This document shows positions 3,566-15,825 of a stretch of 64,000 bases of DNA, in pieces. The position numbers and the translations under genes were made by a program. The stretch is from Pseudomonadota bacterium. GTDB lineage: Bacteria; Desulfobacterota; Binatia; UBA9968. Under the pieces are notes generated by a model that was not told the DNA's origin, made no database searches, and was given only the letters and a program-made list of their open reading frames with translations. Each line of letters begins with the position of its first letter. Positions within the stretch are counted from its first letter, which is position 1. The stretch is taken from NCBI GenBank assembly GCA_021324155.1, contig JAJPJQ010000023.1, forward strand, positions 186,001-250,000, given 5' to 3'.

Positions 3566-4462
3566 ATGAATCGACGCATCGCACTCTTTGTCGCCGGCTG
3601 CGCGCTCCTATTGGCCGCCGCTCACGCGCGCGCTGCAGGCCAGGGCGCAAAGACGCTTGCGCTCGGATTCGTGTCGGAGAAGCCGGCCGCGGAGGTAGAG
3701 GCGCACCTCAAAGACTTCATCGGCTACGTCGCGAGCAAGCTCAACGTCGAGGGCAAAGTCGTCACGGCCAAGACGCCGTCGCAGCTCGCGAACGCAATCG
3801 AGACGAAAAAAGTCGACTTTTACATGGACAGCCCATATCCGACGTATCTGGTGAACCGGAACGGCGCGGCGGTGCTTTTGCTCCGCCGGTGGAAGAACGG
3901 CAAGGCCGAGTACCGCAGCATCGTCTTCACAAAAAAAGACGGCGCGGTGAAGAAGCTCGACGATCTCAAAGGCAAACTGATGGCGTTCGAAGATCCCGGC
4001 TCGACTTCTGCTTATTTTCTGCCCAAAGTCTACTTGATGAAAAAAGGTCTGACCCTGACCGAAAAGCCGGCACCCGACAGCCGCGTCGCGCCGAAGGAGA
4101 TCGGCTACATTTTTACCTATTCGACGGCGAAAACGATCGACATGGTGCTCACCGGCAAGGTCACCGGCGCTGCCTTCAGCGACGACGACTTCGCCAAAGC
4201 CGACGACCAGGCGAAAGCGCAGATCACGAAGCTCGCCGAGACCGGCGCCTTTCCGCGCAATCTCGTGTCGGTGCGGAAAGACCTCGAGCCGGCGCTGACC
4301 AAAAAGTTGAAGGACGCGTTGCTGGGAATGGCGAACGACGCCGAAGGCCGCAAGGTCCTCGCCAATACCGACGCGACCGATAAATTCGATCCGCTTCCCG
4401 GCGGAGAGGAAGCGATGCGGCGGCAGCTCGTCGAGCTGTTCCGCCCGCGCGGGAAAAATTAG
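3566..4462 (+). CDS. PhnD-like phosphate/phosphonate-type ABC substrate-binding protein, copy 1
   Basis: A periplasmic binding protein of the PhnD/phosphite type (298 aa). A signal peptide precedes the mature start near residue 24 (LLLAAAHARAAGQ). Family landmarks are ALGFVSEKPAAEVEAHLKDF, the DFYMDSPYPTYLVNR segment, FEDPGSTSAYFLPKVYL and the GAAFSDDDF segment. Such proteins bind small oxyanions such as phosphonate or phosphite, and the ligand here cannot be told from sequence. It is followed after one base by a diverged copy of itself. No PhnC ATPase or PhnE permease lies nearby. A good ribosome binding site (CAGGAGGCGGCT) precedes the ATG. Confidence 0.85.
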   Translation: MNRRIALFVAGCALLLAAAHARAAGQGAKTLALGFVSEKPAAEVEAHLKDFIGYVASKLNVEGKVVTAKTPSQLANAIETKKVDFYMDSPYPTYLVNRNGAAVLLLRRWKNGKAEYRSIVFTKKDGAVKKLDDLKGKLMAFEDPGSTSAYFLPKVYLMKKGLTLTEKPAPDSRVAPKEIGYIFTYSTAKTIDMVLTGKVTGAAFSDDDFAKADDQAKAQITKLAETGAFPRNLVSVRKDLEPALTKKLKDALLGMANDAEGRKVLANTDATDKFDPLPGGEEAMRRQLVELFRPRGKN

Positions 4463-4463
4463 G

Positions 4464-5357
4464 ATGCTAAAGAAATCGATCTACGTAATCGTCTCCCTTT
4501 TGACCGTCTTCGTTTTTGCGGAGCATGCCGCGCCGCAGACGAAAACCATCGCGCTCGGCGTCATCTCCAAACGGCCGCTGGCCGAAGTCGAGCCTCAGTA
4601 CCGCGACTTCGTCCGCTACATCGCGCGCAAGCTCTCGGTTCCGGCGCGCGTCGAAGGCAAAGTCGTGACGGCGCAAACCGTCTACCAGCTTCAGAAGCTG
4701 CTAGAGCAGGACAAAGTCGATTTTTACATGGAGAGCCCCTATCCGACTTACCTGATCAACCGCGACGGGGTGGCGATGCCGCTGCTCCGGCGGTGGAAGT
4801 CGGGCTCGCCGGAATACCGCTCCATCTTATTCGCGAAAAAAGAAGGCGGCGCGAGAGACATCGCCGATCTCCGCGGGTCGCTGATCGCGCTCGAAGACCC
4901 GGGCTCGACGTCCGGCTACTTTCTGCCTAAGGTATTTCTTGCCGGGAAGGGCATGAAGCTCGCCGAGAAGACTTCACTCGATGCGCCCGTGGGCTCGAAT
5001 GAAGTGGGTTATATTTTCGCCTACTCGGCTTCGAAGGTCGCCGACATGGTGTTGACGCGGCGCGTCACGGCCGGCGCGTTCAGCAACGAGGACATGGACC
5101 GCCTCGACGCAAAGAGAAAGGCCGACATTGTCATCCTCGGCGAGACGGAGAACTTCCCGCGCTATTTCGTTTCCGTTAGGAAGGAAATGGATCCGAAAGC
5201 CATCGATCGGCTTCAGGAAGTTCTCGTCTCGATGCACCAGGACCCCGAAGGGCGCGCGATTCTCGATAAGCTCGAGAACACGACGCGGTTCGACGTCGCC
5301 CCCGGCGGCGAGCAGGCGGTGCGCTTCAAGCTCCAGGAAGTCTTCGGCCTGCAATAA
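4464..5357 (+). CDS. PhnD-like ABC substrate-binding protein, copy 2
   Basis: A 297-residue paralogue of the preceding protein with the same plan: signal peptide (VIVSLLTVFVFAEHAAPQ), then ALGVISKRPLAEVEPQYRDF, DFYMESPYPTYLINR, LEDPGSTSGYFLPKVFL, and a GAFSNEDM segment in place of AAFSDDDF. By eye the two copies match at roughly half of positions over their whole length, so this is an old tandem duplication and not a recent one. The start lies one base after the previous stop, implying coupled translation. The downstream cyclase gene begins three bases after its stop, suggesting that a binding-protein signal and cyclic nucleotide synthesis share one transcript. Confidence 0.85.
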   Translation: MLKKSIYVIVSLLTVFVFAEHAAPQTKTIALGVISKRPLAEVEPQYRDFVRYIARKLSVPARVEGKVVTAQTVYQLQKLLEQDKVDFYMESPYPTYLINRDGVAMPLLRRWKSGSPEYRSILFAKKEGGARDIADLRGSLIALEDPGSTSGYFLPKVFLAGKGMKLAEKTSLDAPVGSNEVGYIFAYSASKVADMVLTRRVTAGAFSNEDMDRLDAKRKADIVILGETENFPRYFVSVRKEMDPKAIDRLQEVLVSMHQDPEGRAILDKLENTTRFDVAPGGEQAVRFKLQEVFGLQ

Positions 5358-5360
5358 GCT

Positions 5361-6116
5361 ATGAAAAAGTTCTTCACGGCGGCGCGGCAGCGAGTGGGCG
5401 GCGCGCGCACCGTGCGCCGCGTTTATCGCCATCTCCCTTCGCGGCAGCGCTGCAAGGAATGCCTCGTGCCGTTTCTCGGGATGTTCTCCGTCCCCTTCCG
5501 CCTCGTCAACATCCGCCCGTCGCGCAAGAACCCGAGCCTCTGCACGCTTTGATACGAGCTCGCTCCCCCGGGCGGGGAGACGCGGATCGTCTCAGTGCTA
5601 TTCGTCGATGTGCGCGGCTTCACCGCGCTCGCGGAAAAGCTCAGCCCAGCGGAGATCGCGGACCGGCTCAATAAATTCTACGCGCTCGCGAGCGGCGCCG
5701 TGTTTAGCCGCGACGGCACGGTCGATAAGCTCGTCGGCGACCAGGTGATGGCGTTTTTCGGCGCGCCGATCCATCATGACGATCACGCGCGCCGCGCCGT
5801 CGAGACGGCGATCGAGATCGTGCGCGGCGTGATGGCCGAGGAAGAAGGCCTCCAGGTCGGCGGGGGAGTCGCCACCGGCGAGGCGTTCGTCGGCAACGTC
5901 GGCGGCGGCGGTGTCGTCGATTACACGGTGCTGGGCGACACCGTGAATGTCGCCGCGCGCCTCCAGGGCGCCGCCGCCGCGGGCGAGATTCTACTGACGG
6001 AGGAAACGTACGCGCAAGTCGCAGAACAATTTCAGGACGCAGGAAAAAGAGAGCTGGAATTAAAGGGCAAGAGCGCGGTCGTGGCGGCTAGGGTGATCAA
6101 GGCAAGGTCGGAATGA
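5361..6116 (+). CDS. Class III adenylate/guanylate cyclase with Cys4 zinc-ribbon-like N-terminus, interrupted by an in-frame TGA at codon 64
   Basis: The reading frame is continuous from the ATG at 5361 to the TGA at 6114 apart from one internal TGA (5550-5552). The N-terminal part has Cys31-x-x-Cys34 and Cys61-x-x-TGA64. The second cyclase in this window (9492-10598) has Cys14-x-x-Cys17 and Cys44-x-x-Cys47 with the same 27-residue spacing, so TGA sits on the fourth Cys. The catalytic domain (about residues 78-245) is intact: VLFVDVRGFTALAEKL with metal Asp, DKLVGDQVMAFFGAP with the second Asp, then VDYTVLGDTVNVAARLQG with the base-reading and transition-state residues. It could be selenocysteine recoding, a nonsense mutation, or a sequencing error. 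If TGA stops translation, the GTG at 5595 could start a shorter cyclase. The next gene overlaps its stop (ATGA). Confidence 0.8.
5550..5579 (+). promoter_or_regulatory. In-frame TGA followed by a SECIS-like hairpin
   Basis: After the TGA (5550-5552) a perfect 6-bp stem CTCCCC (5563-5568) / GGGGAG (5574-5579) encloses the loop CGGGC. The loop starts 17 bases after the TGA, and G is its second base. Published bacterial SECIS criteria ask for a short stem, a small apical loop with a G in its first two bases, and a loop about 16-37 bases after UGA, so the geometry fits. Caution: the same bases encode the Pro-Gly-Gly stretch common in this protein family, and such codons self-pair by chance. Confidence 0.35.
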
Positions 6117-7049: not shown

Positions 7050-7757
7050 TTACTTGATCATCAGATCCGCGAAGACAAAGCCGTCGCGCGTTACGATCTC
7101 GCCCGAGCGGATCGGAATGGGCCGGCGGAACATCGGCCCATCATAGGCGAACGTATGGAATTCGCCGCGCTCGCCGCAGGGATCGACGCCGAGTGGAAGG
7201 TCAGCCAGGAACGCGGCGTCGAATTCCCTGCCGGTGAAGGACGCGTCCAGCTGTTTCGGATCGACGCAGGTGATCCGCGCCCGCAGACCACCGGCGATCA
7301 TCTCGCGCGCGAGCTCCCGCGTACGCCGCGCCCAGATCGGAAAGATCGGCCGCACGCCCGTATTCCGCAACCGCGCTTCGCGATAGGCGCGGATGTCTTC
7401 GAGAAACAAATCGCCGAAAGCCATCGCGGCGATCCCCTCCGATTTCGCCCGCTCGACCGCCGCCTGCATCGCCTCTTCGTAGCGCTCGTTGCTGCACGGA
7501 TAAGGAATCGGGACCTTCCACAGCGAAAGGCCAGCCGCATCGGCCTGGGCCTCGAGCAATTCGAGCCGGACCGCGTGCATCGCAACCCGTTCGTAGGTCT
7601 CATTCACGGTCGTGAGCAGAGCCGCGACCTCGAATTCGCCCATTTCACGTAGAACACGCAGCGACCAGGCGCTGTCTTTGCCGCTGCTCCAGGATAACAG
7701 CGTTTTTTCCTTGCCGCCGGCCGTATCCATCGCCCCCGGATTAACGAAAAGCGCCAT
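7050..7757 (-). CDS. Dph6-like ATP-binding amide ligase (diphthine-ammonia ligase family, PP-loop)
   Basis: The N-terminus has the PP-loop LLSWSSGKDSAWSLRVL, the ATP pyrophosphatase signature that adenylates substrates. It continues with NETYERVAMHAVRLELLEAQ, then AFGDLFLEDIRAYREARL, and ends with GERGEFHTFAYDGPMF. These are hallmarks of the Dph6/MJ0570 family, whose eukaryotic member amidates diphthine on EF2. Bacteria lack diphthamide, so the bacterial substrate is unknown. Length (235 aa) is typical. The first possible ATG (7757) is used here; the ATG at 7730 is an alternative that would remove nine residues before MDTAGGKEK. It is transcribed in the same direction as the isochorismatase-like gene, with 33 bases between. 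Confidence 0.8.
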   Translation of the reverse strand: MALFVNPGAMDTAGGKEKTLLSWSSGKDSAWSLRVLREMGEFEVAALLTTVNETYERVAMHAVRLELLEAQADAAGLSLWKVPIPYPCSNERYEEAMQAAVERAKSEGIAAMAFGDLFLEDIRAYREARLRNTGVRPIFPIWARRTRELAREMIAGGLRARITCVDPKQLDASFTGREFDAAFLADLPLGVDPCGERGEFHTFAYDGPMFRRPIPIRSGEIVTRDGFVFADLMIK

Positions 7758-7826: not shown

Positions 7827-8366
7827 ATGGGCTGGCATTGGCGTGAATGGGCTACCGACCCCGAGCAGCTTAGGCGGCTCAAGCTGCTCGCCTGCGTGCC
7901 GCTTTTCGCCGGCTTAAATCGCCACCAGCTCGGCAAGCTGCTGATCAAGCTTTTCGAGAAGCGCTACCCCGCCGGCGAGACGATCTTTCGCGAAGGCGAT
8001 CCGGGCAAGGCGGTTTTCATCGTTCTCGACGGCAGAATCTCGATCATTCGCGCCGCCGACGGCGCCGAGAAGCCGCTCGCGGTCCTCGGGCCTGGCACCT
8101 ATTTCGGCGAACTCGCGCTCATCGACGACCAGCCGCGCTTCGCCGCCGCGCGCGCCGATGAAGACACCACGCTGTTGATCCTCTACAAGAGCCACTTCGA
8201 CGATCTGATCGAAGGTCAGAAGGCGCTCGCCGTGCACGTCATGGAGAATCTCCTCAAGACTCTCGCCGGCTACGTGCGCAACGAGCAGGCGCGCAACGCG
8301 CTGCGCGGTTCGAAGGGCCAGGTGACGCTCGCCGAGCCCGCCGCCGCCGAGAGGACGCGCCGGTGA
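7827..8366 (+). CDS. Stand-alone cyclic-nucleotide-binding domain protein
   Basis: A 179-residue protein consisting of one cNMP-binding domain (about residues 22-150). KLLACVPLFAGLNRHQLGKL leads into the beta-roll FREGDPGKAVFIVLDGRISI and the phosphate-binding cassette YFGELALIDDQPRFAAA, with the Arg that contacts the cyclic phosphate. There is no helix-turn-helix after the roll, so it is not a Crp-type regulator. The charged tail may contact a partner. It is the first gene of a three-gene operon: its stop overlaps the transporter start (GTGA), and a cyclase gene ends the operon. The obvious inference is that it senses the product of that cyclase and controls the transporter. Confidence 0.85.
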   Translation: MGWHWREWATDPEQLRRLKLLACVPLFAGLNRHQLGKLLIKLFEKRYPAGETIFREGDPGKAVFIVLDGRISIIRAADGAEKPLAVLGPGTYFGELALIDDQPRFAAARADEDTTLLILYKSHFDDLIEGQKALAVHVMENLLKTLAGYVRNEQARNALRGSKGQVTLAEPAAAERTRR

Positions 8367-9490
8367 GCCCCGAGGCCGCCGCCGCGCCGGACCAGCCGCG
8401 CACCCGCTGGTTTCCGCCGCCACCTACGATCGTGTGGGCGATCGCCATCGCGATCGTCGCCGCGATCGCTTACATCGCCAGCGACGTGGTCGTGCTCGTC
8501 ATCTTTTCCGCGGCGCTCGCGTACGTCATTAGCCCGCTCGTGCGCAGGCTGGAGGCCGCCGCCATCCGGCACAACCTCGCCGTCAGCGGTGTCTACATCG
8601 CGATCTTTCTCCTCTTCACCATTACCGCCGCCCTGGTTTTGCCGCGGCTGCGCACCGAAATAGTCACGCTCTCTTCCGGAACGTTCAAGCAACAGATCGA
8701 CCAATCCGTCGACAAGCTGCACCGCGAGCTCATCGAAGAATATCCGGCGCTCGAACAGGTACTGGGCGATCCCGAATCGCGCAACGAGCGTTTGAGCACG
8801 GTCTTCCAGCAGCAGACCGCCAATCTCCCCAACCTCTTGAGCCATGCGGTGGAGATCGCCATCGTCATCGTGCTGATCCCGGTGTTTTCCTTTTTTTTCC
8901 TGCGCGACAGCCGCAGGCTCCTACAGCTCTTGATGGACCGCCTGCCGGCCGACGAGATCGAGACTTCGGTCGCGGTCTGGTGCGAGATCGAGCGCATTAC
9001 CGGCCGCTATCTCCGCGGCCTCGCGCTCGAGGCCATGGCGATTGCGACGATCGCGTCTACCGGTTTGTGGCTGCTCGGGGTTAACTATCCGCTGTTTCTC
9101 GGCGTGTTCTCCGGCATGGCGAACGTGATCCCGTACGTCGGTCCATTTCTCAGCGGCACGGTCGTCGCGATGATCGCGATGATCCAGTTCCAGAGCTTCG
9201 CGCCGCTCGTCAAGGTCATGTTGCTCTATCTCCTCATCAAGTTCTGCGACCTCACGATCATCCAGACGTTGACCGTCGGGCGCAGCGTCCATCTCCATCC
9301 CATTCTGCTCGTCGGGTCGCTGTTGATCGGCGGCCATGCCTTCGGCCTGATCGGCATGGTCGTCGTGGTGCCGATCGTCACCGCGCTGCAGGAAGTCACG
9401 CGGCTCCTGCTCGAACACCGCCGACGCAAGGCGGGCATTCGCACGCCGCGCCGCGCGCCGTCGACACCGATTCAAAACTGCGTCTGCTAA
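8363..9490 (+). CDS. AI-2E family membrane transporter (PerM/YdiK type)
   Basis: A 375-residue integral membrane protein of the AI-2E exporter superfamily. It has two N-terminal helices (IVWAIAIAIVAAIAYIAS and VVLVIFSAALAYVISPLVRR), a long soluble stretch rich in charged residues, then a C-terminal set of helices. This set includes the diagnostic GVFSGMANVIPYVGPFLSG and LLIGGHAFGLIGMVVVVPIV motifs. Substrates in the family range from autoinducer-2 to Na+ or small metabolites, so none is assigned. The GTG start overlaps the upstream cNMP-binding gene, and the cyclase gene follows after one base, which places transport under likely cyclic nucleotide control. Confidence 0.88.
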   Translation: MSPEAAAAPDQPRTRWFPPPPTIVWAIAIAIVAAIAYIASDVVVLVIFSAALAYVISPLVRRLEAAAIRHNLAVSGVYIAIFLLFTITAALVLPRLRTEIVTLSSGTFKQQIDQSVDKLHRELIEEYPALEQVLGDPESRNERLSTVFQQQTANLPNLLSHAVEIAIVIVLIPVFSFFFLRDSRRLLQLLMDRLPADEIETSVAVWCEIERITGRYLRGLALEAMAIATIASTGLWLLGVNYPLFLGVFSGMANVIPYVGPFLSGTVVAMIAMIQFQSFAPLVKVMLLYLLIKFCDLTIIQTLTVGRSVHLHPILLVGSLLIGGHAFGLIGMVVVVPIVTALQEVTRLLLEHRRRKAGIRTPRRAPSTPIQNCVC

Positions 9491-9491
9491 T

Positions 9492-10598
9492 ATGGCGGAA
9501 GCCGGCACGGCGTCGGCAGTCGCCGCGCAATGCGGCATCTGCGGCAGCCCGCTTGCGGGCGCCCTCGGACGCGTCTACCGCGCCGCGGGCGTCAAGCGCA
9601 GCGCGCGCAATCCCAATATCTGTAACCGCTGCGACACCCACGTCGAAGAGGGCGCGCTCATCGAGATGACCGTCCTCTTCGCCGACCTATCTTCGTTCAC
9701 CGAGCTCACGCAGGATCTCGGCCCGGAGCGGACGCACGAAGTAGTCGATGCTTTTCTTAAAACGGCGACCGAGATCATCACACGGCGCGGCGGATTTATC
9801 GACAAATACATCGGCGACGCGGTGATGGCGCTCTTCAATGTGCCGATTAAGCACCCCGACCACGCGCGCCGCGCGGTTGACGCCGCCGTCCAATTGCAAT
9901 CGGCCATGGCGGAATTGAGAACGCGTTTTCACATGGACTTGCAGGCCTCCGCCGGGGTAGCGAGCGGCTGGGCGCGCGTCGGACGGCTCGGCTCCGGCGA
10001 CAGTCGCGATATCACGGCGATCGGCGATGTGGTGAATCTGGCCGCGCGGCTCGAAGGCAAAACGCGCCCGGGGGAAATCCTCGTCGATGCCGCCGCGTAT
10101 AAGGACGCCGCCGGCGAGTTCGGCGGCGCGGCAGAAGAGCATCTCATGCTCAAAGGCTTCAAAGACCCCGTCGCCGCCCATCGCCTGCAAGCGCGAACGG
10201 ACCTGCCCCGTCCGCCCGACGACGCCTCCGAAACGCGCACAGGTTTTCGCTGGGGCGCGGTCGTCATCGGGCTGCTCGGCGCGCCGTGCGCGATCGGCAC
10301 CCTCATCGGCCCGCTCGCCGTTGCGCTCGGCGTCGGTGCGCTGTTCGGCCTGGGAGGCGCGCTTACCTTCCTAGACCAGAGTGCACTCCGTCTTCCGGTC
10401 CTGATCCTCGCCACCTTGGCCGCGCTCGCCAACCTGTATACGGTTTATCATGCCCGGCGGCTCCGCGCGGCCGAGCGGCTGAGCGAGCCGACCCGCCTCG
10501 AAAAGCGCCGCGCCACTGTCGTGCTCGCGACCGCCGTGCTGACGCTCGCCATCGTCGCCTTCGAACTCGTCGCGCACGCCGTCCTGCATCCGACTTGA
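9492..10598 (+). CDS. Class III adenylate/guanylate cyclase with Cys4 N-terminus and C-terminal membrane helices
   Basis: The N-terminal 50 residues hold CGIC and CNRC pairs 27 residues apart, a probable zinc ribbon. The cyclase homology domain follows (about residues 58-225). VLFADLSSFTELTQDLG holds the first metal Asp, DKYIGDAVMALFNVP the second, and RDITAIGDVVNLAARLEG the base-specifying and transition-state residues. After a Pro-rich linker come about four hydrophobic segments (residues 245-365), such as WGAVVIGLLGAPCAIGTLIG and ATVVLATAVLTLAIVAFELV. The catalytic domain is thus anchored by its C-terminus, which is unusual since most bacterial membrane cyclases carry N-terminal helices. 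All catalytic residues appear present. It ends the cNMP-binding/AI-2E operon. Confidence 0.9.
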   Translation: MAEAGTASAVAAQCGICGSPLAGALGRVYRAAGVKRSARNPNICNRCDTHVEEGALIEMTVLFADLSSFTELTQDLGPERTHEVVDAFLKTATEIITRRGGFIDKYIGDAVMALFNVPIKHPDHARRAVDAAVQLQSAMAELRTRFHMDLQASAGVASGWARVGRLGSGDSRDITAIGDVVNLAARLEGKTRPGEILVDAAAYKDAAGEFGGAAEEHLMLKGFKDPVAAHRLQARTDLPRPPDDASETRTGFRWGAVVIGLLGAPCAIGTLIGPLAVALGVGALFGLGGALTFLDQSALRLPVLILATLAALANLYTVYHARRLRAAERLSEPTRLEKRRATVVLATAVLTLAIVAFELVAHAVLHPT

Positions 10599-10676: not shown

Positions 10677-11663
10677 ATGGTTCGCATCGCCAGCATCGCC
10701 GCCGCGCTGATTATCGCCGCATCCGCCGCTCTCGCCGACGCCGCCGACGCGCAGAAGATCAAGCTCGGCTCGTCGCTGAGCCCGCCGTCGCTGGAATCGA
10801 TTTCGCCCTATGTCGCAATCGAGAAGGGCTTCTTCAAGAAAAACGGCGTCGAGGCCGAAGTCGTCGAGTTCCGCGGCGACGCGACGCATGTCAAGGCGCT
10901 GCTATCGGGCGACATCGACGCGTCGATCAACATGGGCGCTACCGAGGCGATCGTCACCGCTCCCAAGGCGCCGATCCGTCTGTGGGTCGTGGCCAATCCG
11001 ATCACGCCGTATTACCTGATCGCGCGCAAAGAAGCGGGCACGACGGTACAGGCGCTCGTCGGCAAGAACGTCGCCGTGTCGGGCATCGGCGCGATCTCTT
11101 ATCACATCCCGCGCATCGTCTTCGAGCGCAGCGGCGTCGATCCCGAAAAATTCAAATACGTCGCTGTCGGTTCGCCGGCCGACCGCTTCAAGGCGCTGGT
11201 GGCCGGCAAGGTCGATGTGACCGTCGTTACGACCACCGAAGTGGCCAAGCTGGATAAATTTCCGGATATCATTCCGCTCGTGAACGTCCCCAAGGTCGTG
11301 CCGGAAATCCCATATGAGTTCGGCATGGCAAAGGAGGATTGGATACAGAAAAACGCCGACAAGGTACAAAGGATGACCAAGGCGATCATCGAAGCGAACC
11401 GGTGGATCGCCGCTAACAAGGCGGGCACGGTGGAAGTCGCGAAAAAAGTCCTCCCTGACGAATCGACCGAGGCGCTCGGCAAGGCCTACGATCTTGTCGA
11501 CCCACGTATCTGGGGTATCAACGGCGATCTCAGTGAGTCGTCGTATAATTACACCGCCGACTTTATGAAGAAGGTCGGCTTCCTGAAAGAGGCGTTGCCC
11601 TACAAAGACTTCTTCGACCGTCGCTTCGTCGATCGGGCGCTGAAAGAGCTGGGCAAGAAATAG
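10677..11663 (+). CDS. NitT/TauT-type ABC transporter substrate-binding protein (NMT1-like)
   Basis: A 328-residue periplasmic protein with a signal peptide (IASIAAALIIAASAALADA) and an NMT1/SsuA-like fold. The recognisable segments are KLGSSLSPPSLESISPYVAI, EKGFFKKNGVEAEVVEF, the INMGATEAIV segment and VAVSGIGAISYHIPRIVFE. Members bind taurine, nitrate, sulfonates, riboflavin precursors or thiamine precursors; sequence alone does not tell which. The strong SD AAGGAGGACGCTC precedes the ATG. ATPase and two permease genes follow in the same direction, making this the only complete ABC importer in the window. A 6-bp hairpin (10633-10648) lies in its leader. Confidence 0.9.
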   Translation: MVRIASIAAALIIAASAALADAADAQKIKLGSSLSPPSLESISPYVAIEKGFFKKNGVEAEVVEFRGDATHVKALLSGDIDASINMGATEAIVTAPKAPIRLWVVANPITPYYLIARKEAGTTVQALVGKNVAVSGIGAISYHIPRIVFERSGVDPEKFKYVAVGSPADRFKALVAGKVDVTVVTTTEVAKLDKFPDIIPLVNVPKVVPEIPYEFGMAKEDWIQKNADKVQRMTKAIIEANRWIAANKAGTVEVAKKVLPDESTEALGKAYDLVDPRIWGINGDLSESSYNYTADFMKKVGFLKEALPYKDFFDRRFVDRALKELGKK

Positions 11664-11742
11664 CTTCGAGTTTCAGGTTTCGGGTTTCAAGCGCGCATTC
11701 CGACTAGAAACTTGAGACTAGAAACCGGAAACTCATCCACGC
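11664..11742. repeat. Imperfect inverted repeat between binding-protein and ATPase genes
   Basis: GAGTTTCAGGTTTCGGGTTTC near the left end pairs imperfectly with the reverse complement of GAAACCGGAAACTC near the right end. The whole 79-base gap can fold into a long hairpin with many T-C and A-G blocks. It lacks a U-tract. Such a structure could attenuate or protect the message so that the binding protein is made in excess over the ATPase and permeases; this role is inference. Confidence 0.4.
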
Positions 11743-12504
11743 ATGCTTGAGGTACGGGAGCTCAGCAAGGTTTTTTTCGAGGACAACGATCCGCGGAAGC
11801 CGGGCCTCGTCGCGCTCCACAACGTCTCCTTTTCGGTGCGACAGAACGAGTTCGTCTGCCTGCTCGGCCCATCGGGCTGCGGCAAGACGACGCTCATCCG
11901 CATCATCGCCGGCCTGATCCGCGCCGACCGCGGCGAGATCCTGGTCGAAAACAAGCGAGTGGTCGCGCCGGGGCGCGACCGCTGCATGGTATTCCAACAA
12001 TTCGGACTGCTCCCCTGGCGCACCGTGCTCGCCAACGTCGAGTTCGGCCTCGAGATCGAGGGAGTTCCGCGCGAGGAGCGCCAGGCGGTCGCGCGCCAGT
12101 ATCTCGAGCTCGTTGGCCTCAACGGTTTTGAGAAATATTATCCGCACCAGATCTCCGGCGGCATGCAGCAGCGCGTCGGCATCGCGCGCGCGCTATCGAA
12201 AAAACCCGACATCCTGCTTATGGACGAGCCTTTCGGCGCGGTCGACGCGCAGACGCGCGAGCAGCTTCAGGAAGAGCTGCTCAAGATCTGGACCAAGACG
12301 AAGAATACCGTTATCTTCGTAACGCACAGCATCGACGAATCGATCTACCTCTCGGATCGTGTGATCATCATGCAGGCGCGCCCGGGCCGCATCAAAGAAG
12401 ACGTGAAGATCGAACTGCCGCGTCCGCGCTGGGAGGGCGACGTCAGGGCAGACCCGCGCTTCGCCGCGCTGCGCACGCACATCCGCGAATCGCTGAGGTG
12501 CTGA
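11743..12504 (+). CDS. NitT/TauT-type ABC transporter ATP-binding protein
   Basis: A 253-residue ATPase that drives the importer encoded around it. All nucleotide-binding motifs are present: Walker [21 protein letters not shown]-loop [18 protein letters not shown], signature [20 protein letters not shown], Walker [18 protein letters not shown] and the H-loop [18 protein letters not shown]. The sequence between Walker A and the signature is of the SsuB/TauB/NrtD subgroup. The start ATG lies 79 bases after the binding-protein stop. The first permease starts one base after its stop. Confidence 0.93.
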
Positions 12505-12505
12505 G

Positions 12506-13327
12506 ATGGCCGCGCACGACGAGCAGATCATCGCCGATCTCGGGCTCCGCCGCGAGAGCGCGCGCTCGCTCTACGATTACCCGAACGTCATCCGCGCGCT
12601 CTCGGTCCTGTGCTTTCTTATCGCGTGGGAAATCTACGGCCGGCGCGTCGATCCGCTGCTGCTCACCTATCCCACGGCCGTCGTCCAGGCGGCTTTCGCG
12701 CTGATCACAAGCGGCGAGCTGCGGCGGCAGATGGCGGACAGCCTGACGACGCTCGCGCTGGGCTTCGGCGCGTCGGTGATCCTGGGCGTCGGGCTCGGCC
12801 TCGTGATGGGGCGCTCGCGGATCGCGAGTGCGGCGCTCGAGCCGCATATCAACGCACTCTACGCGACGCCGCAGGTCGCGCTCACGCCGCTGCTGATGAT
12901 GTGGTTCGGCCTCGGCTTCACGGTCAAGGCGGTCGTGATCTTTCTCTTCGCGTTTTTTCCGATTCTCATCAACACAGCGAGCGGCGTGCGCAACGTGAGC
13001 GCGTCGACGATCGAGGTCGGCCGCGCCTATCTTGCCTCGCGGACGCAGATTCTTTTCAAGGTCGTCTTCCCCGCCGCGGTGCCTTTCATCATGGCGGGCA
13101 TCCGGGTCGCGATCGGCCGCGCCATCGTCGGCATGGTCGTCGCCGAGCTGTTCACGGCGATCACCGGCCTCGGCGCGATGCTCACGCTTTATGGCAATCT
13201 TTTCGAGACCGCGAAAATGTTCGTCGTCGTGATCGTGCTGGGAGTTCTCGGCGTCGTGCTCGTGCGCGCGACGCAGGCGCTCGAGCGGCGGATGGCGCGC
13301 TGGAAGGAGACCGAGCGCGCGAGCTGA
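12506..13327 (+). CDS. NitT/TauT-type ABC transporter permease 1
   Basis: A 273-residue inner-membrane permease of the BPD_transp_1 family. A cytoplasmic N-terminus of about 30 residues is followed by six predicted helices. The coupling (EAA-type) loop reads GVRNVSASTIEVGRAYLASR then VFPAAVPFIMAGIRVAIGRA, which docks on the ATPase. The YPTAVVQA segment after the first helix is usual in the SsuC/TauC group. It is translated right after the ATPase gene. A paralogous permease follows 76 bases later, so the transporter probably uses a heterodimeric pore. Confidence 0.92.
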   Translation: MAAHDEQIIADLGLRRESARSLYDYPNVIRALSVLCFLIAWEIYGRRVDPLLLTYPTAVVQAAFALITSGELRRQMADSLTTLALGFGASVILGVGLGLVMGRSRIASAALEPHINALYATPQVALTPLLMMWFGLGFTVKAVVIFLFAFFPILINTASGVRNVSASTIEVGRAYLASRTQILFKVVFPAAVPFIMAGIRVAIGRAIVGMVVAELFTAITGLGAMLTLYGNLFETAKMFVVVIVLGVLGVVLVRATQALERRMARWKETERAS

Positions 13328-13403
13328 TTATTTTCGATTGCCGATTTTCGATTGAAGACCGGATTGCGAATCGAAATCTAAAATCCAAAATCTAAACATC
13401 GAT
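13328..13403. repeat. Short direct and inverted repeats between the two permease genes
   Basis: The gap carries repeated words: TTTTCGATTG then CGATTTTCGATTG, mirrored by GAATCGAAATC, then AAATCCAAAATCTAAA. Words of this kind, copies of AATCTAAAATCCAAAATC, recur in intergenic spacers of many environmental GC-rich genomes. I see no promoter or terminator in it. Confidence 0.35.
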
Positions 13404-14231
13404 ATGGCCTTAAGCACACTGGAACAACAAGCCCTGGCCGAGCTCGATCTCGTGCGGCAGAAGCCGTTCCGCCTCGTCGACCATCTCGGGCTCGTGCGCT
13501 GGGTGTCCGTCTTCGGCGCGATTCTCCTGTGGGAGGTTTTCGGCCGCGACGTCAACCCGCTGTTTCTCTCCTATCCGAGCGCCATCGCACGCGCGGCCGT
13601 CCAGCTCGTCGGCGCCGGCCAGTTCACGCAACAGGCGCTGAACAGTCTGCAAGTTTATTTCATCGGCCTCGCGGGCGCGCTCGTCGTTGGCATTGTCCTC
13701 GGTCTGCTGATGGGCCGGTACCGGCTCGCGGAATACATTCTCGACCCGTTCGTCTACGCACTCGACGCGACGCCGCGCGTCGCCCTGATACCGATTCTGC
13801 TCCTCTGGTTCGGCCTCGGCGCGCCGGCGAAGATCGCGGTGGTTTTCCTGAGCGGCGTCTTTCCGGTGTTGATGAACACCTTCAGCGGTGTGCGCACCGT
13901 GAGCTCCGGCCTCGTCGAGGTCGGGCGCGCCTACGGCGCCGGCGAGGGAAAAATCTTCACCAAGATCATCATGCCGGCCTCCCTTCCCTTCATCATGGCC
14001 GGCGTGCGGCTCGCGGTCGGGCGCGCCCTCATCGGCATCATCACGGCCGAGATGTTCGCCGCCGTCACCGGCCTGGGCGCGCTGCTCGTGCGCTATTCCA
14101 GCGCGCTCGCGACCGACAAATTCTTCGTCCCCGTGATCTTCCTCGCCCTTCTCGGCGTGATCCTCACGCGCGCGGTCGAGTATTTGGAAAAGCGCTTCGC
14201 GCCGTGGAAAGAAACGGAGCGGGCGCTGTAA
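13404..14231 (+). CDS. NitT/TauT-type ABC transporter permease 2
   Basis: A 275-residue permease paralogous to the one before it, with the same layout. A conserved front (VSVFGAILLWEVFGRDVNPL) is followed by LSYPSAIARAAVQL and the coupling loop GVRTVSSGLVEVGRAYGAGE then IMPASLPFIMAGVRLAVGRA. The two permeases keep the same length and motif spacing, so they come from a gene duplication and presumably form a heterodimer. It is the last gene of the importer operon. The frameshifted Imm8 gene on the other strand ends 45 bases downstream. Confidence 0.92.
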   Translation: MALSTLEQQALAELDLVRQKPFRLVDHLGLVRWVSVFGAILLWEVFGRDVNPLFLSYPSAIARAAVQLVGAGQFTQQALNSLQVYFIGLAGALVVGIVLGLLMGRYRLAEYILDPFVYALDATPRVALIPILLLWFGLGAPAKIAVVFLSGVFPVLMNTFSGVRTVSSGLVEVGRAYGAGEGKIFTKIIMPASLPFIMAGVRLAVGRALIGIITAEMFAAVTGLGALLVRYSSALATDKFFVPVIFLALLGVILTRAVEYLEKRFAPWKETERAL

Positions 14232-14646: not shown

Positions 14647-15825
14647 CTATCTTTTCGCCGGGTCGAGGTGCGCCTGCGCGACCCGCTCCTCGGCGACGGC
14701 GTCGATCTGGGCCTTGAGCTCCGGGTGCGCCTCGAGGAGGTTGCGGAAATCGGTCGCGTCGAGCGCCAGGAGCTGCGTCTCTTTGCGCGCGACGACGGTC
14801 GCAGTGCGGACGGTATCGCGCAGCAGCGCGATCTCGCCGAAATACTGTCCGGGACCGAGACGGACCGGATGCGGCGGCACCTCGACCTCGACCTCGCCCG
14901 CCATGATGAAAAACATCGCGTCCGCCGGCTCGCCGCGGTGCACGATCGCGCTGCGTGCGGGGATCACGCGCCGCTTCAAAAGGCCGGTGATCTCGGCGAT
15001 GCGGCTCGCCTCCAATCCGGCGAAGAGCGGCATCCGCGCGACCGTGTGCCAGGTGACGACGAAATCGCGCTTACGGATCTCGGCGGCGAAGCCGCTGGCG
15101 AGAATGCCCGCGGGCACGGCGAACATCGCGATGCCGACCACCATCACGACGCCGCCGAAGAGCTTGCCGGCCGGCGTCACCGGCACGACGTCGCCGTACC
15201 CCACCGTCGCCATCGTGACGATCGCCCACCACATCGTGTGCGGAATGCTGGCGAAGATCTGCGGCTGCGCGCGGCGCTCGATGATGAACATAATGCCGGA
15301 TTCGACGACCAGCAGCACCGCCATGACGAGAAACGCGGCGAGCAGCGGCCGGCTCTCGGCGCGGATTACGGAGACGAATAGCGGCAGGCCCGGCGAGTAG
15401 CGCGCGAGCTTCAGCAGCCGCAGGAGCCGCAGCACGCGCAGCCAATCCGGTTGGACCGGCACGAATAGATCGAAGTAAAACGGCAGGATCGCGAGCAGAT
15501 CGATGATGCCGTACGGCCCAACCGCATAGCGCAGGCGCGCGCGCCAGGGTGCGGCCGCGCCGGTCGCTTCGCTCTCGGGCGCAACCCACCAGCGCAGAAA
15601 ATAATCGACCGTGAAGAGCGCGACCGCGAGGATCTCGACGTCGTAAAAGACGCCCGCGTACCGGACGCGAAGCGACTCCATCGTCTCCAGCGCCGCGGCC
15701 GCCACCGTCGCGACAGCGGCGACGCAGAGAAACAGCTTGATGCTTTCTTCCAGAGGGGAGGTGTGCTCGGTCTCTTCGAGCAGGTCGTAGAAATAGGCGC
15801 GCAGGCTGCCGCCGGGTTCGGCCAT
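14647..15825 (-). CDS. Cyclic-nucleotide-gated potassium channel (six-helix voltage-sensor type)
   Basis: A 392-residue membrane protein with S1-S6 helices in residues 25-230. The S4 region has regularly spaced Arg (LRVLRLLRLLKLARYSPG). The selectivity filter reads ATVGYGDVVPVTPAGK, specific for K+. S6 is followed by a short linker and a C-terminal cNMP-binding domain (about residues 255-375) whose phosphate cassette is YFGEIALLRDTVRTATVVA, with the expected Arg and Thr. It resembles the MloK1 class, in which cyclic AMP opens the pore. Two cyclases lie within 10 kb upstream on the other strand. The start lies next to a dispersed leader repeat (15826-15864). The Imm8 gene follows directly. Confidence 0.9.
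   Translation of the reverse strand: MAEPGGSLRAYFYDLLEETEHTSPLEESIKLFLCVAAVATVAAAALETMESLRVRYAGVFYDVEILAVALFTVDYFLRWWVAPESEATGAAAPWRARLRYAVGPYGIIDLLAILPFYFDLFVPVQPDWLRVLRLLRLLKLARYSPGLPLFVSVIRAESRPLLAAFLVMAVLLVVESGIMFIIERRAQPQIFASIPHTMWWAIVTMATVGYGDVVPVTPAGKLFGGVVMVVGIAMFAVPAGILASGFAAEIRKRDFVVTWHTVARMPLFAGLEASRIAEITGLLKRRVIPARSAIVHRGEPADAMFFIMAGEVEVEVPPHPVRLGPGQYFGEIALLRDTVRTATVVARKETQLLALDATDFRNLLEAHPELKAQIDAVAEERVAQAHLDPAKR

Follow-up and report, generated by a model that had tools for sequence, protein, structure and literature searches.

An in-frame TGA in a cyclase gene of the window (the whole 64,000-nucleotide stretch of DNA analysed here) is real and very probably encodes selenocysteine (Sec). 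From its sequence, we put at about 0.88 the probability that the product is a selenoprotein, namely a class III adenylate cyclase with Sec in an N-terminal Cys4-type domain (Table 1). The preliminary description of this DNA had presented a single odd gene; it is rather one of a family with many predicted Sec members. Read with TGA as a residue, the gene (5361-6113) specifies 251 residues, places U at position 64 and reaches its next stop, again TGA, only at 6114-6116, bearing out the earlier claim of a frame continuous across the codon. By hand count, the cysteines of the window's other Cys4 cyclase (9492-10598), C14, C17, C44 and C47, have the same spacing as C31, C34, C61 and U64, so that the TGA, as first described, replaces exactly the fourth Cys.

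Table 1. Predicted features of the cyclase gene and its surroundings in the window.
Feature	Position	Strand	Evidence
Second PhnD-like periplasmic binding protein, tandem copy	3566..4462	+	PF12974 5.7e-47
PhnD-like periplasmic binding protein	4464..5357	+	PF12974 2.9e-43; stop 3 bases before cyclase start
Putative Sec-containing class III adenylate cyclase gene	5361..6116	+	Frame unbroken if TGA = U, giving 251 aa including U64, then stop; PF00211 1.5e-22; orthologues with same TGA at up to 72% identity
Cys3-Sec domain core C31xxC34-x26-C61xxU64	5451..5552	+	Alignment A2 rows: C31 and C61 73/73, C34 70/73, position 64 Cys or Sec 73/73
In-frame TGA, very probably read as selenocysteine (U64)	5550..5552	+	TGA here in 29/101 family members, Cys in 71
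Predicted bacterial SECIS hairpin CTCCCC-CGGGC-GGGGAG	5563..5579	+	-9.8 kcal/mol; loop from +17, its second base G
Class III cyclase catalytic domain, residues ~71-249	5571..6107	+	Z 25.0 to CyaC 1wc1 over model residues 70-249; D83, K123, D127, T189, N196, R200
Cyclic-nucleotide-binding domain protein	7827..8366	+	PF00027 1e-25; 64% identical homologue, same order in G010
cNMP-domain ion channel	14647..15825	-	Within 10 kb of two cyclases

PF00211 matches the window protein at 80.5 bits (cut-off 21.9), and in a whole-chain model (pLDDT 94.5) the catalytic domain superposes on that of CyaC with an rmsd of 1.6 over 179 residues at 34% identity. All six catalytic residues listed in Table 1 are in the window protein, and we take them to fill the roles of metal Asp pair, substrate Lys, Thr/Asp, Asn and Arg; K123 is kept in 59 and T189 in 62 of 73 aligned members. 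As a rule of class III cyclases, Lys together with Thr points to ATP, which by sequence would make the protein a putative adenylate cyclase. The Cys3-Sec domain, which in the model lies six residues ahead of the first strand of the catalytic part (71-85), is predicted less confidently when modelled alone (pLDDT 75.5). Searches with this domain alone returned no fold match, either from Foldseek at E 0.001 (one match at E 8.6) or from VIA-align at Z 2, a result that does not imply a new fold. The window's domain has no Pfam match, its relatives give scattered weak matches to zinc fingers, and the best match in a PDB profile search was eL34 (0.0019), followed by zinc fingers, all too weak to use. 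Assignment to a known fold was set aside because neither the eL34 nor the Foldseek match is strong enough; the weak zinc-finger profile matches are compatible with a metal site but fall short of establishing one.

To define the family, a profile made from seven TGA orthologues (A1) was used to search 395 genomes of the window's phylum, 25 of its family and 148 of its class, as well as 400 genomes of the phylum and 393 of the class of G442, the genome of a Dehalococcoidia record (L041), all of these sets overlapping. The resulting Cys4-cyclase family counts 101 distinct members, mainly from the window's class and Chloroflexota: at the fourth Cys position 29 members, spread over 27 genomes, have TGA, 71 have Cys and one has neither. 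Because 14 to 38 first-look candidates were scored per genome in the phylum and class searches, members can be missed, and 101 is a lower bound. Matches beginning after profile position 15 were dropped; a Cys-type match without stops (G827:C128) stands outside the member count and 76 loci (L043-L118) outside the member scan, and those left-out loci whose sequence extends beyond the catalytic part (L051, L099 and L114) showed no Cys motif. Alignment A2 holds 73 of the 93 rows offered, and A3 61 of 94.

Nowhere in the 101 members does TGA occupy any other of the four Cys positions, and the sole further TGA in the 85-residue segments compared lies in L155, past an apparent frameshift and off any Cys position. 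Every stop flagged within the A1 profile matches is TGA, with no TAA or TAG among them; sequencing errors or gene decay would not favour a single stop codon at a single residue. When 58 related genomes were first searched with the whole protein, one TAG-interrupted match did appear, in a distant cyclase of G039 (33% identity, 1368-residue frame). Where the fourth position is Cys, its codon is TGC in 58 and TGT in 11 of 95 members. The preliminary description had proposed asking whether orthologues carry TGA or Cys here. Among the matches listed from the 58 related genomes, the three nearest orthologues have the same TGA at 64-72% identity; the public genome collection adds three Chloroflexi or Dehalococcoidia metagenome-assembled genomes (MAGs) with TGA at the same codon; and TGA is kept in all seven members of the window's clade, Chloroflexi-titled records included.

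This clade, group A, has the pattern C-x2-C...CTxUYE. Group B (L018, L140, L141) has Asp in place of the second Cys (CLxD) and keeps U; group C comprises L198, L219, L249 and L252; group D, of the GGAE type, comprises L180, L240, L243, L245, L246, L248, L251, L255, L256, L259, L261 and L263; and L250, L254 and L265 are single TGA members outside the groups. After the TGA the cyclase part runs on for at least 186 residues in 27 of the 29 genes, the other two (L254 and L256) being cut short 20 and 29 residues after it. In L042 (G443) there are two matched cyclase stretches, the first without the usual metal-Asp motif and with the TGA kept.

A tree of 95 members requires 11 switches between Cys and TGA, of which well-supported branches force at least eight, whereas shuffled labels need about 24 changes on the same tree. 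It omits five members under 180 residues in length as well as the member that has neither Cys nor TGA; the tree search was quick, and the placement of two long rows, L042 and L232, is unsure. The window's clade unites the window's family with Chloroflexi- and Dehalococcoidia-titled records, and a genome with the Cys form (G352) shares its genus code with one that has the TGA form (G1221). Pairwise comparison of the window gene, L010, L011 and L012 (six pairs) gives a dN of 0.10-0.33 and a dS of at least 1.0 (often saturated), both before (63 codons) and after (96 codons) the TGA: the coding sequence is under purifying selection on both sides.

A search of the genome for selA, selB, selC and selD had also been proposed, and all four are present. 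The tRNA-Sec, with anticodon tca (UCA), scores 74.8 bits against a cut-off of 47, a looser tRNA model matching all 14 control genomes and exceeding its cut-off in five; SelB scores 412 bits against a cut-off of 242 that is exceeded in two of the 14 control genomes; and SelA (603 bits) and SelD (370 bits) are clustered with SelB on contig C16. The selD gene of this genome (L136, G000:C16, minus strand) has an in-frame TGA of its own at 7187, within the catalytic loop AAGUAAK, and its product is probably a selenoprotein itself; the same motif with TGA recurs in four of eight further loci scanned around selB (L208, L209, L210 and L215). In another locus (L205, G053:C88, minus strand, 8765-9565 and 10925-14226), about 1.4 kb separates selB from a Cys-form cyclase downstream of it; selB is itself preceded on the same strand by what looks by eye like a selA-like frame.

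Across the family, SelB is over its cut-off in 25 of 27 TGA genomes and in 33 of 43 genomes with other forms only (Fisher p 0.08; the 43 include G1216, which has the member with neither residue, and G024 was left out), and it is also present in 14 of 20 genomes of G442's phylum that have no family match. Sec is thus common in these lineages, which makes co-occurrence with SelB a weak discriminator, a sign that a prerequisite is in place; as proof we set it aside. Two TGA genomes in which no SelB was found, G1048 and G1054 (the latter with two TGA cyclases), may be incomplete assemblies, their completeness not being given, or real exceptions.

Downstream of the TGA, CTCCCC (5563-5568) and GGGGAG (5574-5579) can form a 6-bp stem around the loop CGGGC (5569-5573). 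The published model of bacterial SECIS elements (bSECIS), as given in PMC13188914, specifies a loop of 3-9 nt, a stem of 4-16 bp, a G in the first two loop positions, a spacing of 16-37 nt and a minimum free energy of -7.5 kcal/mol or lower. With a 5-nt loop opening on CG, 6 bp, 16 nt between TGA and loop, and -9.8 kcal/mol, the window hairpin agrees with this model, as the preliminary description had stated for the position of its loop, 17 bases after the TGA. Measured against chance, the hairpin of the window gene alone is borderline: among 500 synonymous recodings an equally strong one arises at a rate of 4%, and in a set of 200 the bSECIS model is satisfied by 19.5%.

For the family as a whole, we compared the 48 nt after the codon in each gene with 1000 synonymous recodings that followed the gene's own codon use, scoring the best unbroken stem. 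TGA genes (n = 29) have a mean of -8.76 kcal/mol versus -5.01 in their recodings (mean z -1.33; seven with p <=0.05), and Cys genes (n = 71) a mean of -4.03 versus -4.13 (mean z 0.01; three with p <=0.05). Because members are related, such gene-level p-values overstate the case and a test by clade is fairer: with 12 TGA clades drawn by hand and each entered as one value, 11 lie below zero (p 0.0007), L255 alone lying above, and TGA clades differ from Cys genes (p 0.0001). The proposed check at synonymous sites therefore separates the two forms, hairpins of the TGA form exceeding synonymous recoding and those of the Cys form not. The signal is strong in clades B and C (mean z -2.87 and -2.89) and weak in the window's clade (-0.68), where only the window gene among seven has p <0.05; the three members of clade B differ at one pair of the stem, with A-U in L018, G-U in L141 and G-C in L140. 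The earlier suggestion that the hairpin might come from conserved Pro-Gly-Gly codons is thus partly upheld within the window's clade, but it fails across clades, where different hairpins stand at the same place.

The bSECIS model itself, with an unbroken stem, is satisfied by 17 of 29 TGA genes, where 4.6 are expected, versus 10 of 71 Cys genes, where the 70 recodable ones lead one to expect 7.9 (Fisher 1.4e-5), and with bulges allowed by 29 of 29 and 68 of 71. The bulged form, found in nearly all genes of both kinds, does not discriminate, and the TGA of SelD in the window's own genome fails the strict form, so that the model is only a guide. Among Cys genes, L244 (G881:C206) is nested in TGA clade C, in a genome where no SelB was found, and retains the hairpin typical of that clade (p 0.023), which gives it the look of a recent reversion from Sec to Cys, with the hairpin as a fossil. 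L241 likewise sits beside TGA genes and comes from a genome in which the search found no SelB; this Cys gene is without such a hairpin (p 0.94).

In the window's genome the PhnD-like gene next to the cyclase is probably its operon partner, and an operon with two PhnD-like proteins suggests a link there to an oxyanion or similar ligand; no permease gene was seen directly beside the tandem pair (3566-5357). The cyclic-nucleotide-binding protein and the ion channel of Table 1 are possible cAMP effectors. Among 14 loci compared, the PhnD-like gene and the downstream order are common to G010 only, BLAST finding none in the other loci examined, and in a scan of 20 neighbours the genes beside other members were unrelated ones (among them amidohydrolases, M16 peptidase, PNPOx, nitronate monooxygenase, amidase); a conserved neighbourhood as a clue to the signal was thereby ruled out. 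Selenium uptake through the PhnD-like proteins was likewise rejected: their scores against TIGR04553 (putative selenate binding protein), 49.8 and 35.3 bits, are far below the cut-off of 250, and they are not members.

The simplest account of the TGA, raised at the outset, is a nonsense mutation from TGC, leaving a dead gene, or a sequencing error and hence a wrong assembly. The change takes a single base, and two of the 29 TGA genes are indeed cut short. Yet recurrence of the same TGA in separate MAGs contradicts this account and makes sequencing error very unlikely, and 29 members in 27 genomes, the absence of TAA and TAG among the flagged stops, purifying selection downstream and an open cyclase part in 27 of 29 genes leave mutation or decay the least credible explanation of all. 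Scarcely more credible is a split gene, in which UGA would be a true stop after a short Cys-rich peptide and the cyclase would start separately at GTG 5595. The frame from this GTG does span most of the catalytic domain, but the GTG is codon 79, inside the first catalytic strand of the model, and its product would lack the start of that strand; moreover, 71 of the 101 members are uninterrupted homologues with a Cys aligned to the TGA, and hairpins after the TGA exceed synonymous recoding. We give equally little weight to readthrough with another amino acid (Trp or Cys, through a suppressor or near-cognate tRNA) and no Sec. The two TGA assemblies without SelB would fit it, whereas the full Sec set and Sec-type SelD of the window's own genome, SelB in the other 25 TGA genomes and a hairpin excess present in TGA forms and absent in Cys forms as a group all speak against it. 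Decoding as Sec, the reading put forward in the preliminary description, is supported by the machinery in the genome, the orthologues that keep the TGA and the hairpin excess in TGA forms.

Under Sec decoding, the UGA would be read by SelB and tRNA-Sec with the aid of the hairpin, whose loop starts 17 nt downstream, and Sec would be the fourth ligand or the redox residue of the Cys4-type domain C31xxC34...C61xxU64. Lying six residues before the first catalytic strand, the CxxU pair may act as a switch: a reversible selenenylsulfide between C61 and U64, or a soft metal bound and released, would move the short linker, and the shift would reshape the entrance to the catalytic dimer and set cAMP output. 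A redox switch is the function to which we would assign even odds; sensing of a soft metal or metalloid is a tentative second candidate, and some other function is improbable. Sec might instead be a structural metal ligand only, with no switch and with Sec and Cys exchanging almost neutrally, as the at least eight exchanges on the tree, the conservation of all four positions in Cys forms and the weak matches to zinc-finger families would allow. Sec is costly, however, and the window's clade keeps it in seven of seven members; it is found at the fourth position only; and subfamily B keeps it with C34 replaced by Asp, which is hard to square with a four-thiol zinc site and favours the CxxU switch. 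We consider a purely structural role unlikely, if less so than the accounts that dispense with Sec.

Most known selenoproteins are redox proteins. No cyclase is among the 119 families in Table 1 of a 2026 selenoprotein inventory (PMC13188914), in line with the earlier remark that cyclases were not known as a selenoprotein family, and the word 'cyclase' is absent from the main text of PMC13188914, PMC12013277, PMC9312934, PMC2398784, PMC1794560 and PMC1088965. Nor, among the matches listed from open-licence PubMed Central full text, a collection without subscription papers or preprints, does any title or opening of an abstract deal with a Sec cyclase. NCBIfam lacks a model for the family: the matches that 73 members give at E 1e-5 are confined to two general cyclase-containing models, and the window protein reaches 36 bits where the cut-off is 706. 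Sec-UGA codons often lead annotation tools to truncate genes, as noted in PMC13188914, so that Sec cyclase genes have probably been missed. A Sec-bearing cyclase would place selenium chemistry inside a second-messenger enzyme, and a single domain that occurs naturally with Cys or with Sec, with at least eight alternations on the tree, would provide paired proteins for asking why Sec is used. Taking the sequence evidence together, the chances seem to us evenly balanced that these genes form a widespread, undescribed family of adenylate cyclases in which Sec, as a redox (or soft-metal) sensor, sets cAMP output and has repeatedly been swapped with Cys, both in the window's class and in Chloroflexota.

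Class III cyclases of the CyaC/CyaB type (1wc1, 3r5g, 2w01) have a catalytic fold like that predicted for the window protein (Z 24.5-25.0, 30-34% identity) and the same set of metal Asp, Lys, Thr, Asn and Arg residues, in roles that we presume to be shared, but they align from residue ~70 on, leaving the Cys3-Sec domain beyond their cover. The window's own Cys4 cyclase without Sec is a homologue with the same domain order and Cys spacing and 38% identity over residues 29-251; such cyclases have TGC or TGT where the window gene has TGA, and as a group their hairpins are no stronger than recoding would give. The Global Ocean Sampling (GOS) survey (PMC2398784) describes an FmdB-type putative regulatory selenoprotein with UxxU or U/CxxU; there, going by description only, Sec takes the place of a Cys in a CxxC pair, as it would in the window cyclase, although the FmdB type, unlike the window protein, is not listed as fused to a cyclase. 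By motif and listing, the closest parallels to its CxxU are SelW-like and AhpD-like proteins and GrdA, entered in PMC13188914 as oxidoreductase-type or reductase proteins, none of them a nucleotide cyclase.
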